A DNA stretch of 64,000 nucleotides from the NCBI RefSeq assembly GCF_012396235.1, contig NZ_JAAXPA010000012.1:1-64000 (forward strand), read 5' to 3'. The position numbers were made by a program, and so were the translations under genes. Source of the stretch: Rhodococcus opacus. Its GTDB lineage: Bacteria; Actinomycetota; Actinomycetes; Mycobacteriales; Mycobacteriaceae. Each line of letters opens with the position of its first letter. The stretch's first letter is position 1. This document shows, piece after piece, positions 34,211 through 43,496 of the stretch. The notes below the pieces were generated by a model that saw only the letters and a list, made by a program, of their open reading frames with translations, ran no database searches and was not told the DNA's origin.

Positions 34211-34888
34211 GTGACAGAACCGCCGAACAGGGCACCCCTCGACCGCTTCTCGCACTGGTTCCCGCCCTTCGCGTCGGCCCCGGCACCGCGGTCGACGGCT
34301 CCTGCCGCGGAAACCGAGCAGCAACCCCCCGCTCCGACGTGGCTGGCCCCGGGCGACGAGCCCGATCCCACCCCACCTGTTCGCAGCGGTCGCGGCAAGC
34401 AGACACTCGCGGTCGCCGGAGCCGCGGCAGCGGTGATCGCCGGGATCGCCGGTGTGGTCGCCGTGTTCAACTCGACGTCCGGTGATGCGAGCGGAACCCC
34501 CGTCGCCGCTGCCGATTCGGGCTGGTGCGTCGAATCCCGCGACGGCTCGACGGTGACCGGCAACGGTCCGGGCGGGACCTCCGACGGCGTCGCCGCGATC
34601 CTGGGCTTCGACCACGCGTACTACGTCGCACGGAGCGGCGCGAAGGCCCGCGAGGTGGTCGCACCCGACGCGCCGGTGGGGTCCGCCGAGACCATCCAGG
34701 GCGGCATCGATTCGGTGCCCGAGGGCACCGAGCACTGCCTCGCCATCACCGAGACAGAACCCGGCCGCTACGCCGTGACGCTGTCGGAGCTGCGACCGGA
34801 CGGGTCGGCGAAGAAGTACGAGCAGGTCGTGACCACCGCGGACCGCGACGGTCGCACTTATATCACATCCATTGGAGACGCGAAGTGA
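34211..34888 (+). CDS. Single-span membrane protein of the toxin locus
   Basis: 225 aa from GTG 34211 with GGAGG 8 nt upstream. A Pro-rich cytoplasmic N-terminus (about 65 aa) is followed by one transmembrane helix (TLAVAGAAAAVIAGIAGVVAVF) and an extracytoplasmic domain of about 130 aa that has two Cys (GWCVESRDG and EHCLAITE), likely a disulfide. No enzyme motif is seen. The stop overlaps the next GTG (GTGA), so it is coupled to the ATPase-like gene. Confidence 0.7.
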   Translation: MTEPPNRAPLDRFSHWFPPFASAPAPRSTAPAAETEQQPPAPTWLAPGDEPDPTPPVRSGRGKQTLAVAGAAAAVIAGIAGVVAVFNSTSGDASGTPVAAADSGWCVESRDGSTVTGNGPGGTSDGVAAILGFDHAYYVARSGAKAREVVAPDAPVGSAETIQGGIDSVPEGTEHCLAITETEPGRYAVTLSELRPDGSAKKYEQVVTTADRDGRTYITSIGDAK

Positions 34889-35652
34889 CCGACCAACTGC
34901 TGCAAGCACTTCCGGTGTCAACTCTCGTCCTCGGGGCGTGTGGAGGAGCCGCCGCCACCACGACGACGCTCGGGCTCGCCAACACCGCGGCAGCTCGCGG
35001 CGGCGCGGTCGTGGCCGTCGACGCGACACCCGCGGGCGGCGATGTCGCCGAACGCGGCGCCGACGCCGTGCTCTCCGTGAGCGGCCTCGAGCAACTGGTG
35101 GCCGCCGGCCCCGTCGCGGACGACGTGTTCGACGGGTACTTCTCCCGCACGAGCGCCGGGACCCGCATCCTGAACCGCATCGGGAATCAGACCGCATCAG
35201 AACGTGAATTCCATACTGTCACAGGGACACTCCGCGCTCGCGGTGTGAGTGCCGTTCACGACCTCGGTCACCGGTTGCGTGCCGCGTACCTCGCGCCGCT
35301 GCTGGCCACTCCGTCGCCCATCGTCCTCGTCGTGCCGTGCCGGGCGGACGCGTTCAACCGTCTCCGCTCCGCGTTGCAGTCGATCGGTGACACGCTCGGC
35401 GAACCAGGGCTCGCCCGCACCGTCGTCACCGTGTCGAATCAGGACGCCACCGGCTGGCAGGTGGACGTCGACCTCCTCCGCGAGTACCTGGGCGGACAGG
35501 TGTGGGGCATCGAGACCATCCCCTACGACGAACATCTGGGCATGGGGATCGTCATCGAACACAGCAAGCTGGCACCGGACACCCGGGCCGCGTACGAGCG
35601 GGTGTCCGCGGCAGCGTCGGCGGTAGCCGAAGGTCGGCCGGAACGGGTCTGA
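34885..35652 (+). CDS. Deviant ParA/MinD-like protein
   Basis: 255 aa from GTG 34885, with GGAG upstream. The N-terminal LGACGGAAATTTTLGLANTA aligns with a Walker A of MinD/ParA type but lacks the canonical Lys residues, followed by AVVAVDATPAGGDVAERGAD (Walker A' analogue) and a central VLVVPCRADAFNRL. Similar degenerate MinD-like proteins accompany ESX loci (EspI/Rv3860-like). ATP use is uncertain because the key Lys is missing. It may position or gate the secretion machinery. Confidence 0.65.
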   Translation: MTDQLLQALPVSTLVLGACGGAAATTTTLGLANTAAARGGAVVAVDATPAGGDVAERGADAVLSVSGLEQLVAAGPVADDVFDGYFSRTSAGTRILNRIGNQTASEREFHTVTGTLRARGVSAVHDLGHRLRAAYLAPLLATPSPIVLVVPCRADAFNRLRSALQSIGDTLGEPGLARTVVTVSNQDATGWQVDVDLLREYLGGQVWGIETIPYDEHLGMGIVIEHSKLAPDTRAAYERVSAAASAVAEGRPERV

Positions 35653-36088: not shown

Positions 36089-36711
36089 TGGGTGACCACC
36101 TCGAAGTCGACCCGTCGGTGCTGATCCAGGCGGCGCAGGGCATCACGGCGATCACCGAATCACTGTCCGGGCTCGGGACCGGCGAAACAGCATCCGTGGG
36201 GCGCGGGTTCTCCCTCCTCGCCCTGTCGCCGATGGAAGCCGGGAAGCAGGAGGTCCAGACGAGTCTCGAGGAGTTCGCGGAACGGTGGTCCTGGGGAGTC
36301 CGTCATCTCGTGCAGTCGGCCAACGAGATCGCCCGCGTCCTCGATCTGGCTGTGGGCAGCTACTACACCACCGAACAGGTCTACTCGGATGCGCTGAAAA
36401 CGGTGTGGACGAACACCGTCGGCAACCCCCACCTCAGCGGCGACGAGATCAGCGACCGCACATGGGGCGAAACGCTCGCGGACAATCCGATCAACCAGAC
36501 GCTCAACGCCAATTACAGCCTCGAATCATTCGAGGCGGCAGACCAGGCCATCGCAACCAACAACGAGGTCATCGCCGCCGTCGGCCCGCAGGCCCTCGCC
36601 AATGTCTCCCCGCTGGCGGACATGCTCGATTCGGGCACCACACGAAACTGGGACACCGACGCAACGGAGCAGGCCGCCGAGATCATGTCGGCTGGTGGCG
36701 GTCCGTCGTGA
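36088..36711 (+). CDS. EspC/WXG100-like secretion partner
   Basis: 207 aa. The N-terminus LEVDPSVLIQAAQGITAITE matches ESX-associated EspC-type proteins, and a helical hairpin with FAERWSWGVRHLVQSANEIA follows. The C-terminal ~90 aa are extended and polar (NPHLSGDEISDRTWGETLAD). It overlaps the toxin gene by 4 nt (GTGA), so they should be made in equal amounts and are probably co-secreted through a type VII pathway. Confidence 0.7.
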   Translation: MGDHLEVDPSVLIQAAQGITAITESLSGLGTGETASVGRGFSLLALSPMEAGKQEVQTSLEEFAERWSWGVRHLVQSANEIARVLDLAVGSYYTTEQVYSDALKTVWTNTVGNPHLSGDEISDRTWGETLADNPINQTLNANYSLESFEAADQAIATNNEVIAAVGPQALANVSPLADMLDSGTTRNWDTDATEQAAEIMSAGGGPS

Positions 36712-39700
36712 GCTGGCTCAGTGATACGTGGGACGACGCGAAGGGTGCGATCGACGACTTCGGCGACGCCGCCGAGAATGCGATCGAGAGCACCGTCGAG
36801 AACGTCGGGCAAGCTGCCGATTCGGGCCTCGATGCCGCGGCGGGACTCGCGCAACGGGTCGGCGCCGACGGCATCGCAGATACCCTGACCGATCTCGGTG
36901 ACGACATCGCCAGTGCCACCGGTGGACCCGTCGACGAACTGGACCTGGGACAGACCGAAGAACCGAAGGAACTGATCCGCGGTGAGCCGTCGGCCATCGC
37001 CGAAGCGACCACCACGCTGACCGACCTGGCCACGAGCATCGGCTCCACCGGTGACGCACTGCGCACCGTCGACGCGGCCGATTGGACGGGCAGCGCGGCT
37101 GACGGATTCAACGAGATCTTCGACAAACAACCCGCACTGTGGCACGACGCGGCCGACGCGATGAACTCCGCAGCCCGGACACTCGTCTCCTGGGGTCATA
37201 CCGTCGAAGCCGCCCAGGCCCGCGCCGCCGACGCGGTGGCGCGATGGAAGCAGGCCGAGGCGGAGGAGAGGGCAAAGAAGTCCGCCTACAACGCACTCAC
37301 CGGTGAGCAACAGGCAGACCACCCACTCGTCGACACCTGGACCGCGATGCGCGAGCAGGCCCGCGAAATCCTGCGGGGCGCCCGAGCGGACCGCGACGGC
37401 GTCGCCGGCCAGGTCTCCGGTGCACTGACCAGCGCCACCGCGACAGCCCCCACGGAGCCGCCCTTCACCGAACGGTGGATGAACAACCTCACCGACGCCA
37501 CCGACGGCGTGCACCTGGGCGTCGCCAACTTCTACTCCGGTCTGCTCACCGGACTCAGCGGAATCGTCCAGTTCGTCCGGCAGATCAACCCGACCGACAC
37601 CTACAACATGACGCATCCGGCCGAATACCAGGCCGGCCTGTCCAACCTCGCGACGGGAATCGTGGTCGCGGCCGCCGACCCCGGCACCATGGTCTCGACG
37701 ATGGTCAGCGACATCCGGAAGAACCCACTCGAATTCGCCGGAAGCCTCACCGGCGACGCAGTGCTCACCGCCGCCACCGGCGGTGCGGGCGCAGGAGTCG
37801 CAGGCGCTCGCACCGCGGTCCGCGTGCTCGACACCGCCGGCGATCTCGGCAACGGTGCCCGGCTCCTCGACGACGTCGCGGACGTCAGCCACATCCCGAA
37901 GCCCGACACCCCGCACGTCGACTCGCCCACTCCGCACGCGGACACGCATCCGACGAGCACCGACCCGGCACCGACTCCCGAACCGCGCAGTCCCGAACCT
38001 GCCCATCCCGGCCCCGCCGAGCATGCCGGTGCGGATTCGGGCGCGAACGACGCCGCTCACGACGCCGGCCCCGAAACCGATCGCACGAGCAACCAGAACT
38101 GCGAAGGCCGCGACCCCGTCGACGTCGCGACCGGTGAATTCCTGCTCCCCGAAACCGATCTGACACTTCCCGGTGTGCTGCCACTGGTGTTCGGCCGGCG
38201 GCATCGTTCCGGCTATCGGTTCGGTCGCTGGTTCGGTCCGAGCTGGTCGGCCACCGTGGACATGCGCGTGGTGGTCGAGGAACCGGGGGTGACGCTGCTC
38301 GCCGAAGACGGTGTCATGCTCACGTATCCGCACCCCGAGGTGGGGACGCCGGTGATGCCGGATCCCGGGCAGCGCTGGCCGCTGTCGCGGACCGACACCG
38401 GCGGCTACCGGGTTCACGACCCCGACCGCGGACTCACCTGGCATTTCACACCCAAGCCGGAACTGGACGGTCTCGACTCCGCGCTCGGCAACATCGCAAT
38501 CAGTGCGATCACCGACCGCCACCGCAATCGCATCCTCTTCCGGTACGACACTTCCGGGACCCCCGTCGAGGTGTCGCACTCCGGTGGCTACCGGGTTCTC
38601 GTCGACACACGGTCCGGCCGGATCGTGGGGTTGTCCGTCGTCGACGGAGACACTGCCACCCCGGTTCGCCGGTTCGACTACACCGACGGGCAACTCACCA
38701 CCGTCGTCAAGGGCGACGCGGCTCGACTCGGTACACGTACGACGCGGAAAACCGCATGCTGTCGTGGGTCGACGGCAACGGCAACCGCATGGTCAACACG
38801 TACGACGCGGACGGGAGGGTAGTCCGGCAGAACGGCACCGGCGGCATCCTCGACTCCGAGTTCGACTACCGCACCAACGCGGAGTCCACGGGCTCCGTCA
38901 CCGTCGTCACCGACTCGACCGGCGCGGCGACGGTCCACGGTTTCGACTCCGACCTGCGGCTGCGGGACCTCGTCGACGCCGCAGGGTCACGCACCCACAC
39001 CGACTACAACGCGCGGCGAGAACCGTTGCGAGTCGTCGGACCTGACGGCGCGACGACGAGCTACCTCTACACCGCCGACGGAGACGTCGCCCGGATCACC
39101 CGACCCGACGGACACGCCGTCGCCATCGACTACGCCGGCCCCCGCCAACCGGCGACGATCCACCATCCCGACGGCACGATGTCGCGGCAAGAATGGGATG
39201 AGCAGGGAAACCTCGTCGCCGTCGTCGATGCGGCCGGTGCACGCACCCGGTACGGGTACGACGCGTCGGGAAGCCTCACCTCGATCACCGACGCGGCCGG
39301 GGGTCGCACATTCGTCGAATCCGTCCGGGCCGGACTGCCGGCCGCCGTCACGGATGCGAACGGCGCCGTCACCCGCATCACCCGGGACGGGTTCGGCCGA
39401 CCCACCACCGTCACCAACCCCACCGGGGAGACCACCACCTACCGATGGTCGGCGGACGGTCAGCTCGTCGCGCGCACTCACCCGACGGCGCTGTCGAGAC
39501 CTGGGCGTACGACGGGGAGGGCAACCTCCTGGTCCACACGGACGCGGTCGGCGCCACCACCCTCTACGAGTACGGCGCGTTCGACCTCCTCGCCGCCCGC
39601 ACCGATCCCGACGGCAGCACCACCACGTACGGCTGGGACACCGAGCGGAGACTGACCTCCGTCACCAATTCGCTGGGCGCCACGTGGTCCTACCGATACG

Positions 39701-41498
39701 ATGAGGTCGGCCGGCTCGCCGAGGAAACCGATTTCATCGGCGCCACAACTACTTACACGTACGACACCGCGGGTCGCGTCGCATCGGTCACCCCCGCCAC
39801 CGGCATCACCCGCCGGCACACGTACGACATTCTCGGCAGCGTCACCGACATCCGTGCCGACACCGGCGAACATCTCCACTACGCGCACGACCTCGCGGGA
39901 CGCGTCACCACCGCCGTCTCCGGCACCCGCCGGCGGGAAGTCCATTCCCTCACATTCACGTACGGCCCGACCGGGCAGTTGGTCAGCGAGACCGTCGACG
40001 ACAACCCGGCGTTGCGGTTCGAATACGACGCGGTCGGTCGGCGCACCACGAGGCACAGCCCCACCGGAAGCGATACGAGTTGGCAGTGGGATCCCACGGG
40101 GCATCTCCTCGGACTCACCACCGACGGCCACCACCTGGCCTTCGGCCACGACTCCGTCGGCCGATTGACCGACTGGCGCGTCGGAGAACTCGCCGTGCGA
40201 CGAAACCACACCCCGCGCGGCCAGCTCGCCAACCAGGACGTGATCGCCCATCCAACGTCCACCCTGAATCTCGGACTCGAGCCGAGCGTCCAGCCCCGGG
40301 CGCTGAGACAGGACAGTTACGCATACCGGCCGGACGGATACCTCGTCGACCACACCACCCAGCGGGACGCGTCCAGGGTGGTCCGACGCAGCTTCGACCT
40401 CGACCCGGCCGGTCGGATCACCGCTGTCGTGCAGGACGGCCATGCCACCGAGCAGTATCGCTACGATCCGCTCGGCAACATCACGGACTCCGGCTCGGAT
40501 CGTCGCGAGTATCTCGGCAATCTGCTCGTCCGCGACGGCCGCACCCGATTCCACTACGACGCCGTGGGACGTCTGATCCGGAAGACCACCACCCGGCTGT
40601 CACATGCACCGGACGTGTGGCACTACCGCTACAACGCGTTCGATCAGCTCACCGACGTCACCACCCCCGACGGCCGGCACTGGCAATACACCTACGACGC
40701 CCTCAGCCGACGCGCCACCAAACAACGACTCGACCACGACGGCACCGTCGCCGACCTCATCCGCTACACGTGGGACGGCACGCACCTACTCGAGCAGAGC
40801 TCCGGCGACACCACCACCCGATGGAACTACCAGCACGGCAGCTACACCCCCCTCACCCAGGCCGTCAGCCGCACCTCCGACATCGACCGTCTGTGGGATC
40901 AGCGGGCCGTCGACACCGAGTTCTACGCCATCGTCACCGACCTCGTCGGAACACCCATCGAACTCGTCGATCCCCGCACCGCCGACCGCGTCGCCGACGC
41001 CACCACCGACCTGTGGGGAAACACCATCTGGCACGGCGCCACCGACACACCCCTCCGCTTCCCCGGCCAATACCACGACCCGGAAACCGGACTCCACTAC
41101 AACCTGCACCGGTACTACAACCCCGACACCGCCCGATACCTCACCCAGGACCCGCCCCCTCACCCAACCCGAACACCTACCCTCACAACCCCACCGGATG
41201 GACCGACCCACTCGGCCTGGTGCCGGCGGCGTGTGATGGGACAAACGGGAAAGCGTTCGAACATGACTACGACTATCACCCAAGGATTCGAGCAAGAGGA
41301 CTCGAGGATCCGACTGGGCACAACTTTCCGTACTCATTTGATGACGAGATACTGCGGCGGCAACCGATAGTTCAGAACGACGGTTCTCTGCTCTATCGCG
41401 CCGATGGTTTCCTCAATGGAAAGCCGGGATATTATGAGATTGCTGTAAATACGGATCGAAATCTCATTTTTCACCGAACATGGAGGTCTGGGAGTTGA
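36708..41498 (+). pseudogene. Type VII-linked RHS polymorphic toxin gene with three frameshifts
   Basis: Read across the shifts it would encode about 1,600 aa. Modules in order: a WXG-like helical export domain (DAADWTGSAADGFNEIFDKQ, residues ~120-140), a hydrophobic middle, a Pro/His linker, a DUF6531 prepeptide (CEGRDPVDVATGEFLLPETD), about 20 RHS/YD repeats, the RHS core end (RFPGQYHDPETGLHYNLHRY), the PLGL junction, and a ~90-aa toxin tip. Frame changes occur near 38718, 39482 (CCCC to CCC would explain it) and 41150 (a 10-nt loss would restore DPLGL). All shift the same way. GTG 36708 overlaps the previous stop. Likely inactivated; sequencing error is an alternative. Confidence 0.75.
41205..41498 (+). 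other. C-terminal toxin module (unrecognised family)
   Basis: After the PLGL junction (about 41205-41219) the final ~90 residues contain HDYDYHPRIRARGLED, GHNFPYSFDDEIL, SLLYRADGFLNGKPGYYEIA and IFHRTWRSGS. Base composition drops from strongly GC-rich to near 50% within this module. I cannot name the family; the paired His, Arg and Thr would suit a small RNase-like toxin, but that is inference. It remains an open frame, so it could be expressed if the upstream shifts were bypassed. Confidence 0.5.
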
Positions 41499-41803
41499 AG
41501 TATCTAAAGCTTTCGGCTGATTTTCTGGCTCTATCACTGGTCGACCAACAAGATGGTCCAACCAGCCCCTCAGAACTGGGACTGTCCACGGAATTGCAGA
41601 ATATGCTCACCGATTGGAATTCCGATTACCAGACAATCATACCGTTGAGTATGTCGGTACGGTCGAGCGAGCAGTGGAACTCTATCATCTGTTCATTAGA
41701 CACTCGGGGCCTCAATCTTGCGCAAATGATCGCCGATGAACTAGTTGATGATGCCAAGGTTGAATACTATAGCGAAGGCTTGCTGAAAAGAATCGATCAC
41801 TGA
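41495..41803 (+). CDS. Probable cognate immunity protein
   Basis: 102 aa from TTG 41495. GGAGG lies 8 nt upstream, and TTGA overlaps the toxin TGA, so translation is coupled. An ATG at 41480 lacks such a site. The product (KYLKLSADFLALSLVDQQDG..., NLAQMIADELVDDAKVEYYS) is small, acidic and cytosolic, with no recognised domain, and low in GC like the toxin tip. Position directly behind a polymorphic toxin is the main reason for calling it immunity. Confidence 0.65.
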   Translation: MKYLKLSADFLALSLVDQQDGPTSPSELGLSTELQNMLTDWNSDYQTIIPLSMSVRSSEQWNSIICSLDTRGLNLAQMIADELVDDAKVEYYSEGLLKRIDH

Positions 41804-41849: not shown

Positions 41850-42021
41850 GTGCCGAAACCGAGCAACGGCTCGGTGAACTACGGAGAACATTGCGAGATC
41901 GAAGCCGAGAGTGGTGGCGCAGGGCAGTTACTATCGATACTGCAACTCTGGTCGCAGTTGCAGTCGGGAGATGCTTGAATTTTTTCAAATTGAAGCCGGA
42001 CAGGAATGGAATCCCGAATAG
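41850..42021 (+). pseudogene. Remnant of a small immunity-like gene
   Basis: From a GTG at 41850 one frame reads GSVNYGEHCEIEAESGGAGQ then LLSILQLWSQLQSGDA before stopping. In the adjacent frame from 41977 it continues EFFQIEAGQEWNPE and stops at TAG 42019-42021. Joining needs a 1-nt removal or 2-nt addition near 41975. The TAG overlaps the GTG of the next remnant. The family is not recognised; other frames of the region are also open, so the reading is tentative. Confidence 0.35.
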
Positions 42022-42279
42022 TGGACAAATTTGATGCCCTGATACCCAGCGAGATCCACAATCGAGAGGGGCTTATCGAGTTCATCGTCAACTCTCAGCT
42101 GAAGTGGCAAACAGTTCCGAAGAGTTCGAGAACCTCACCACTCATGACTATCTGTCAGCTGCGGCGGCATGGACGGAGGAAATGACGGCTACTTCGACAA
42201 CCTTGGCCTACCTCTGCCGATAAATCCTAATTGGAGCTTCATCGCCACGATTCCGACTGCCGCACTTCGGTACGAATAG
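42021..42279 (+). pseudogene. DUF7660-like immunity gene broken by two 1-nt deletions
   Basis: Three frames in succession give VDKFDALIPSEIHNREGLIE..., then VANSSEEFENLTTHDYLSAA followed by AAWTEEM, then DGYFDNLGLPLPINPNWSFI ending ALRYE and TAG 42277-42279. Joined, they reproduce the DUF7660 pattern (E-N-x-T-x-x-x-Y-L-x-A-x-x-A-W-x-x-x-M-D-G-Y at the C-terminus). The deletions are near 42091 and 42184 (ATGG to ATG). DUF7660 proteins are small orphan proteins often near polymorphic toxins. Confidence 0.6.
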
Positions 42280-42319
42280 CGGAATCTCGTGCTAACCGGA
42301 GGGCACGTCGAGGTCAGTC

Positions 42320-42392
42320 ACATCCGCGAACGTTTTAGCTATGTGCGTCCGCAATTGCGTGCGCAGATGACCAATTGGTGCGCGGGTGTGTA
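42320..42392. repeat. 73-bp hairpin repeat, copy C
   Basis: Begins ACATCCGC, has CCGCAATTGCGTGCGCA 31-47 nt in, then ACCAATTGGTGCGC. It aligns without gaps to copies at 42781 and 42904. It ends 13 nt before the GTG of the orphan gene at 42406. GCGCA...TGCGC can pair around the ACCAAT core. Confidence 0.65.
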
Positions 42393-42405
42393 AGACTCGA
42401 CATCC

Positions 42406-42759
42406 GTGTACCACCCATTCGAAATACCCGCTCCTGACGAACTGGCGAGATTTCATCAGATAGCGTCCCAGCCGTTGCCTGATATCCCGGGCGGCTATAT
42501 CCTTCGCGCATCAACTGATCGCGGTGGAGATGTCGAACTCGTCGTCGACCCTCTGGGCCGGTCCATCAGGCTCAGGTTTTCGGTTCTCTCACATCTTGTC
42601 TTCGACCTTTTTCGCGAAGGCGCAACGCGACTCCGACTAGCCGAAACCTACGGTTCACTGGTCATTGCAATAGAATTCGAAGCGGGCGAAATTGCCGGGA
42701 CCTTGTACATCAACGTCGGCGGCACGATTAACATTAAGGATTCGCTCTTGCTCCATTAG
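42406..42759 (+). CDS. Orphan small protein, possibly immunity
   Basis: 117 aa from GTG 42406. MYHPFEIPAPDELARFHQIA, GGYILRASTDRGGDVELVVD and IEFEAGEIAGTLYINVGGTI suggest a compact alpha/beta protein without signal peptide or membrane helix. GC content is lower than in the surrounding chromosome. I recognise no family. It is flanked by repeat copies C (13 nt upstream) and A (21 nt downstream), like a cassette. Confidence 0.55.
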   Translation: MYHPFEIPAPDELARFHQIASQPLPDIPGGYILRASTDRGGDVELVVDPLGRSIRLRFSVLSHLVFDLFREGATRLRLAETYGSLVIAIEFEAGEIAGTLYINVGGTINIKDSLLLH

Positions 42760-42780
42760 GGACACCACATGCCTCTCGAG

Positions 42781-42853
42781 ACATCCGCACATGGTTTTGC
42801 TGTTTGCACCCGCGATTGCGTCCGCATTTGGCTAATCGGTGTGCCAATGTGCG
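42781..42853. repeat. 73-bp hairpin repeat, copy A
   Basis: ACATCCGCAC, a 23-nt variable segment measured from the end of ACATCCGC, GCGATTGCGTCCGC, then ATTTGGCTAATCGGTGTGCC. Its right half can fold (CGCATTTGGC with GCCAATGTGCG), where the stem bases differ from copy B but pairing is kept. Confidence 0.65.
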
Positions 42854-42903
42854 ACAGGAGGGCTTTCACTGACGCCGAGCGGCAATAGCTGAGCGAAGTC
42901 ACC

Positions 42904-42976
42904 ACATCCGCACACTTTTTGGTCAGCTTCACACGCAATTGCATGCGCGTTTGACCAATCGGTATGCAAACGCGAG
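42904..42976. repeat. 73-bp hairpin repeat, copy B
   Basis: ACATCCGCAC, then 23-nt spacing as in the other copies, GCAATTGCATGCGC, and TTTGACCAATCGGTATGCAAA. CGCGTTTG pairs with CAAACGCG around ACCAATCGGTAT. No gene lies between copies A and B. It ends 13 nt before the stop of the convergent SRPBCC gene. Confidence 0.65.
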
Positions 42977-42989
42977 GTCCGCGGCCCCC

Positions 42990-43385
42990 TCACGCCTCCA
43001 GCAACCCCTTCAACCTCTGCAGGTCGGCGTTGACGGCCGCTGCGTCCTGCGCGAATTCGTCGGCGGTGACGCCGTCGCGTCGCCGGATGGTGAAGACGAC
43101 TTCGCTGTGGTCGCCGTCGGCGATGACGCGCACGGGGTTGTAGACGGTGTCGCCGCTGGGGAGGGTGACGTCGTGGTCGAGGATGCCGTAGTCGTTGGCG
43201 GGTGCGAAGGTCACTGCGACCTGTCCCATCGGGGAGTCGGCGAGCCAGCGGTCGCCGTCCCGGGTGATGTTGGTGCTCAGGCCCGCCGCCCAGGCGGGGA
43301 GGTTGGCGGGGTCGCTCGCGTAGGCGTACACGTCGGCGGCGGGCCGAGCGATGAACACACTGACATGGGTTGATTCGGTGGTCAT
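42990..43385 (-). CDS. SRPBCC-fold protein
   Basis: 131 aa. VSVFIARPAADVYAYASDPANLPAWAAGL is the classical SRPBCC N-terminus, followed by MGQVAVTFAPANDYGILDHDV and a long C-terminal helix DAAAVNADLQRLKGLLEA. It is probably a small ligand-binding or cyclase-like protein of unknown ligand. ATG 43385; longer starts upstream would run into the divergent VOC gene's promoter. Confidence 0.85.
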   Translation of the reverse strand: MTTESTHVSVFIARPAADVYAYASDPANLPAWAAGLSTNITRDGDRWLADSPMGQVAVTFAPANDYGILDHDVTLPSGDTVYNPVRVIADGDHSEVVFTIRRRDGVTADEFAQDAAAVNADLQRLKGLLEA

Positions 43386-43496
43386 GACACCCAGCATCCC
43401 CGCTACACGGCACGGGTGATTGAAGAAATCGGACTCCGGTGCTCGATGTCCGAAACCTTCAATGCGGGTCCGCCTGAGGTCGTTAGCGTTCTCGGT

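Follow-up and report, generated by a model that had tools for sequence, protein, structure and literature searches.

The closest described parallel to the element studied here is the arrangement of repetitive extragenic palindromes (REPs) with their RAYT (TnpA-REP) genes, in which dispersed palindromes of genome-specific sequence are accompanied by a partner gene that is itself flanked by copies (PMC2817692, PMC3733652). A REP is defined as a palindrome of 20–40 bp tagged by an unpaired GTAG or CGTC (PMC3733652). Most REPs are found downstream of genes, where neighbours are convergent or in tandem. We analysed a stretch of 64,000 nucleotides from Rhodococcus opacus (hereafter the window; NZ_JAAXPA010000012.1, positions 1 to 64,000), which contains three copies of a palindromic element beside an RHS toxin island. 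Our analysis indicates that these copies probably belong to a REP-like family of palindromes dispersed in Mycobacteriales that has a partner gene for an AbiEi/nuclease-like protein, and that the copies would serve as bidirectional 3′-end hairpins.

The three copies, designated C, A and B in their order along the window, correspond to positions 42316–42394, 42777–42855 and 42900–42978, all on the minus strand. Copy C follows the remnant of a DUF7660 gene and precedes an open reading frame (ORF) at 42406–42759, copy A begins 17 nt past the stop of this ORF, and copy B lies 11 nt past the stop of an SRPBCC gene. Orthologues were identified for C in loci L047 and L048 and for A in L046 and L047, and B is present also in relatives that lack the island. 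A preliminary description of this DNA had reported three ungapped copies of a hairpin repeat starting at 42320, 42781 and 42904, and sequence comparison of the window bears this out: the copies agree pairwise at 47, 48 and 45 of 67 positions, whereas the best of 200 dinucleotide shuffles of the region reached 37. The description was also correct on the ACATCCGC motif, on the constant spacing and on the gene layout, with a single ORF separating C from A and none between A and B; the ACCAATCGGT motif is exact in copy B only. Its claim that the stem stays paired while its sequence changes was sound as to covariation, but the stem had been drawn too narrow, and the whole element forms one symmetric palindrome.

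This conserved unit is a nested palindrome of ~79 bp centred on CAATTG. The symmetric register, with its axis in CAATTG, is common to all three copies, and folding of the minus strand gave one long hairpin each for copies B and C (−38 kcal/mol and z −4.65 for the RNA fold of B). An unbiased scan of all possible fold axes returned the palindrome axis as the best, with 75% of cells paired at this axis and 29–45% once it was slid. In a 79-column minus-strand alignment the paired columns are 4–17/64–77, 21–27/54–60 and 32–38/43–49. The covariation expected of a wider alignment is present over 22 copies from independent sites, where 23 of the 32 pairs carry double-sided changes; these total 84 compared with 49.8 ± 7.0 in shuffles, and none of 500 shuffles reached 84. 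Compensated changes were also identified at orthologous sites, for example C-G replaced by A-U at columns 23/58 in G023 and by U-A at columns 38/43 in G019. The local stem within a half-element, CGCGTTTG/CAAACGCG, covaries in a 17-copy set that is weighted to this locus and more weakly across independent sites.

Each arm holds a motif of ~12 bp twice, 19 bp apart, giving four half-sites per element. At lag 19 the arms have a mean self-identity of 0.43 (Rhodococcus) or 0.50 (other genera); at most other lags it is ~0.2–0.3, and it is also raised at lags 21 and 25. The element sequence is common to unlinked copies within a genus and differs between genera. The half-site motif is likewise genus-specific, being CATCCGC-like in Rhodococcus, GCACACG in genus g32, CATCCGCTAC in g48 and TTCCCGCGCAC / CTCGCGCACG in genome G207.

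Because blastn with one copy against its own genome, and with the region against plasmids, gave no further copies, a covariance model was required. An initial version and then one from 17 copies were built on the CAATTG axis and used for genome searches; copy counts, coming from a model trained on the window locus, are lower bounds. We detected ~11 loci in the R. opacus genome, and copies in 20 of the 28 same-genus genomes, in 23 of 151 genomes of the family and in other Mycobacteriales. The genome G207, from another family of the order, contains more than 20 closely similar 79-bp palindromes (e.g., L252–L271) at a density of ~16 per 400 kb, or roughly 200 per genome by extrapolation; REP/RAYT systems have more than 100 copies per genome. 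Zero copies were seen in G039, which belongs to the same genus as G207, making G207 a candidate for recent expansion. Outside the window the copies neighbour a wide variety of gene pairs, and the element is therefore not confined to toxin/immunity loci. One element (L063) is common to distant species and missing in G015, and it appears to have been lost there since distant species share it; another (L128) occurs in G015 but in neither G001 nor G024, which fits insertion or loss. No clean insertion was found at the presence/absence sites inspected. Classification as a miniature inverted-repeat transposable element was rejected because target-site duplication is absent. The palindrome had no Rfam match above the gathering score, and no description of such a family was found in Rfam or in the open-licence literature searched.

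With gene positions from a simple gene caller of our own, 77 Rhodococcus copies could be placed: 50 in convergent gaps, 21 in tandem gaps, 6 in divergent gaps and none inside genes. Copies often overlap a stop codon. Flank similarity yielded 17 clusters, which were split by hand into ~20 independent sites, of which 12 are convergent, 6 are tandem with the element immediately past a stop codon, and 2 are divergent. The 12 of 20 convergent sites compare with 19 of 285 background gaps at the same loci (7%, p 6e-10), after three gaps that were really elements had been taken out of the background. Among copies from other genera, 12 of 17 are convergent. The lag-19, location and association tests partly share loci. 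In this predominance of convergent and tandem gaps after genes, the family resembles REPs.

Hairpin strength follows gene arrangement, with z ~ −6 on both strands for convergent copies, −2 to −3 for tandem copies and ~0 to −1 for divergent copies. On the sense strand of the SRPBCC gene G-U pairs outnumber A-C pairs (49 vs 15), and convergent gaps leave little room for a second terminator. The elements resemble I-shaped, bidirectional bacterial terminators in having a strong hairpin ~30 nt or less from stop codons, on both strands and with no U-tract, and differ from them in being a sequence-related repeat family of fixed length with internal half-sites. A canonical intrinsic terminator was rejected, as no U-tract follows the hairpins. 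It could be argued that these are purely RNA-level elements, either U-tract-less (I-shaped) bidirectional terminators or 3′-end protecting hairpins under selection, next to which a partner gene (described below) would be found simply as a by-product of that gene needing terminators. The 3′-end and convergent placement, the tracking of gene arrangement by hairpin strength, the excess of G-U over A-C and the scant space for another terminator are all in line with this. We nevertheless consider it unlikely, because unlinked copies within a genus share sequence beyond what pairing involves, divergent copies retain sequence with little hairpin, tandem copies were searched for a sense-strand preference and have none, and partner genes bear palindromes on their 5′ side too. 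Separately, three copies of one site cluster (L062, L152 and L147) have their G-U excess antisense to the upstream gene, which hints at an unannotated opposing transcript.

The interpretation as a REP-like family involves genes of one protein family that are flanked by pairs of copies ~1 kb apart in Rhodococcus and g32; a closer look revealed the same in g10, g48 and g4. Every relative of this partner gene first found by tblastn sat at an element, and most were flanked on both sides. At loci with the partner gene (L118, L141, L150, L059, L065, L104, L108, L111, L126, L133, L274 and L290) palindromes of the type of the respective genome usually occupy both sides, and in L333 (Tsukamurella) and L335 (Collinsella) the gene is likewise flanked, by other repeat sequences. 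As the earlier loci had been fetched through the element, we sought partner genes independently of the repeat, and obtained one from contig C1 of the same R. opacus genome and one from G207, with 400 kb of each covered, plus relatives from Brevibacterium, Tsukamurella and Collinsella. In this set, assembled by hand, 6 of 8 independent genes have a strong adjacent palindrome (p about 6e-6), defined by a score of at least 14 that random stretches reach in ~4% of cases per side. The motif repetition at 19 bp is present in at least one arm of the Brevibacterium, C1 and G207 palindromes. The Collinsella gene lies between arrays of alternating repeats of other sequence and spacing, and that repeat has ten occurrences in the record. 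For each of the five genera compared, the flanking palindromes are most like the dispersed copies of their own genus, strongly so in g32, g4 and g10. At L118:2028, L150:2013, L141:1991 and L059:7614, divergent copies located just upstream of the partner gene have kept their sequence across four species without forming a good hairpin. The viral contigs and phages searched contained no relatives of the partner protein.

The N-terminus of the partner protein is AbiEi-antitoxin-like, with PF13338 (AbiEi_4) matching 6 of 9 members (best 3.4e-7), and an annotated relative is labelled as an AbiEi family antitoxin. The protein differs from the AbiE type IV toxin–antitoxin system in its extra nuclease-like domain, and no gene annotated as AbiEii toxin was found beside the annotated relatives. 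The family shares an invariant region, DF...GEFDGxxKY...RED, with conserved D, E, D and K residues in DF...GEFDGxxKY. A PDB sequence search with the partner protein gave no match. In a structural model of the Brevibacterium relative, the C-terminal domain best matched the catalytic domain of I-Bth0305I (3r3p; Z 9.3, 93 of 97 residues, rmsd 3.6 Å), followed by an endonuclease-like Neisseria protein (3hrl, Z 8.2), both ahead of other PD-(D/E)XK-type domains; the matches below the top VIA-align rows were unrelated folds. This comparison suggests that the C-terminus has a predicted Vsr/I-Bth0305I-like nuclease fold. Homing endonucleases of the I-Bth0305I type (EDxHD, Vsr-like) are found in introns, whereas the partner protein, which would share their catalytic-domain fold, is fused to an AbiEi-like domain and encoded by a free-standing, palindrome-flanked gene outside any intron. 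Compared with REP/RAYT, the palindrome is longer (~79 bp, four half-sites spaced 19 bp apart), occurs in Mycobacteriales and lacks a GTAG/CGTC tag that is constant across the aligned copies. Its partner is AbiEi-like and, by prediction, Vsr/EDxHD-like instead of a Y1 HUH transposase (PF01797), a family represented in the R. opacus genome merely by a 41-position piece in an 80-aa frame.

AbiEi antitoxins bind inverted repeats, and the partner protein could accordingly be a regulator whose genome-wide binding sites are the palindromes, the flanking pair serving in autoregulation. Four half-sites per element at 19-bp spacing and the two conserved divergent sites would suit such an operator network. 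However, promoter-like divergent gaps account for only 2 of 20 sites, and most sites lie after stop codons, which makes this explanation improbable.

Returning to a REP-like family, we put forward, with confidence evenly balanced for and against, that the palindromes are mobile or once-mobile and were spread by a protein joining an AbiEi-type DNA-binding part to a domain that resembles homing endonucleases. This would be convergent with REP/RAYT, the enzyme and the repeat architecture being unrelated; across Mycobacteriales the copies would have been co-opted as hairpins serving gene ends in both directions, and related arrangements would exist in Brevibacterium and Collinsella. Judging from the arrangement and the fold, the AbiEi-like domain would read the half-sites and the nuclease-like domain would act on the palindromes or on their targets, with copies once spread or still maintained. 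The nuclease-like domain may have done so by cutting and repair as in homing, or by some other copying route, taking the role that the HUH transposase has in REP/RAYT. Position, covariation and fold strength suggest that gene-end copies would be kept because their long hairpin terminates or shields transcripts arriving from either side.

Several observations weigh against this interpretation. Most Rhodococcus copies occupy sites common to several species, with no current spread evident there, and target-site duplications are no more frequent than at random, both for G207 and for Rhodococcus copies, although old duplications could have decayed in Rhodococcus. In Tsukamurella, 2 of 3 partner genes have a weak adjacent palindrome or none; the same-genus match of the g48 palindromes is best only marginally (0.59 vs 0.57); and the two partner genes so far observed in the R. 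opacus genome, L017 and L306, both look frameshift-broken. The Brevibacterium model is weak (mean pLDDT 39, C-terminal domain mostly ~55–77). With regard to transcript ends, none of 100 tails at convergent Rhodococcus copies has TTTT past the hairpin, and termination by mycobacterial RNA polymerase without a U-tract is disputed (PMC12288462); given this debate, the hairpins are as likely to protect 3′ ends generated by Rho as to bring about termination themselves. Lastly, template switching can yield compensatory palindrome changes without selection, as documented in PMC8794818. Together with the symmetry of the arms, this mechanism would allow the elements to be neutral, ancient palindromes kept tidy during replication. 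We regard that as the least credible of the explanations weighed here, since it leaves the convergent-gap placement, the grading of hairpin strength by gene arrangement, the cross-locus sharing of sequence and the partner gene unexplained.

The copies in the window lie at a variable site bounded on the left by a conserved gene (34885–35652, plus strand), convergent with the SRPBCC gene in island-free relatives, and on the right by the conserved SRPBCC (Polyketide_cyc2) gene itself (42990–43397, minus strand). Between them, on the plus strand, are an RHS polymorphic toxin region (36708–41498; T7SS_signal PF21725, DUF6531) spread over more than one reading frame, an immunity-like orphan ORF with no Pfam match (41480–41803) immediately past the RHS C-terminus, a frameshifted DUF7660-family gene (42006–42279) upstream of copy C that is intact in L048 (6932–7192; PF24693, 5e-21), and an orphan gene of 117 aa with no Pfam match (42406–42759) between C and A. 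Within the genus, relatives of this last gene occur at this locus only, in G005, G024 and, as a 3′ remnant, G015. The interrupted toxin and the frameshifted DUF7660 gene make the island look to be decaying.

In G018, G026 and G023 the homologue of the left gene faces the SRPBCC gene across a gap of ~100–125 bp with a single element and no island. In the window and G005 the RHS toxin island lies between these two genes, and C and one more element end island genes; G024, G001, G015 and G019 have partial or decayed islands at this site. The deletion in G015 ends at 42352, inside copy C and ~3 nt or less from the hairpin centre, that in G019 begins close to where the island starts and reaches into the right arm of B, and in G005 copy B is cut down to its right end. 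The copies at this site are old, end cargo genes just as they end other genes and coincide with deletion endpoints in three relatives, which are too few cases for calling a mechanism. With island-deletion breakpoints falling within copies in these relatives, the copies may be passive deletion hotspots and not a dedicated cassette-exchange site. Under the REP-like interpretation, copy B would be the old 3′-end element of the convergent pair formed by SRPBCC and 34885–35652, and C and A would end toxin-island genes, with copies acting as deletion endpoints as the island decays.

The preliminary description had instead proposed a dedicated boundary element for recombining immunity cassettes. Locally, copies do end single small genes behind the RHS toxin, with cargo that differs in relatives, and the three deletion endpoints noted above would fit this proposal. 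It does not extend into a general rule: the covariance-model search of related genomes found copies genome-wide at genes unrelated to toxins or immunity, which largely refutes it, copy B occupies the same convergent gap in three relatives free of the RHS island, and attC boxes are absent. We therefore find a cassette function very improbable. Integron attC sites, which are also imperfect palindromes following single small genes, were rejected as a class because the core boxes RYYYAAC and GTTRRRY are in no copy and copies occur genome-wide, mostly between convergent genes.

If the palindromes and their partner gene are related as proposed, a REP/RAYT-like arrangement, in which a selfish palindrome is tied to one enzyme gene, would have arisen again with a different enzyme, and a function would be offered for an actinobacterial AbiEi-annotated family usually read as antitoxin. 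The copies also represent concrete candidate bidirectional gene-end signals, testable by transcript-end data, for Rhodococcus and for mycobacteria, in which few canonical terminators occur.
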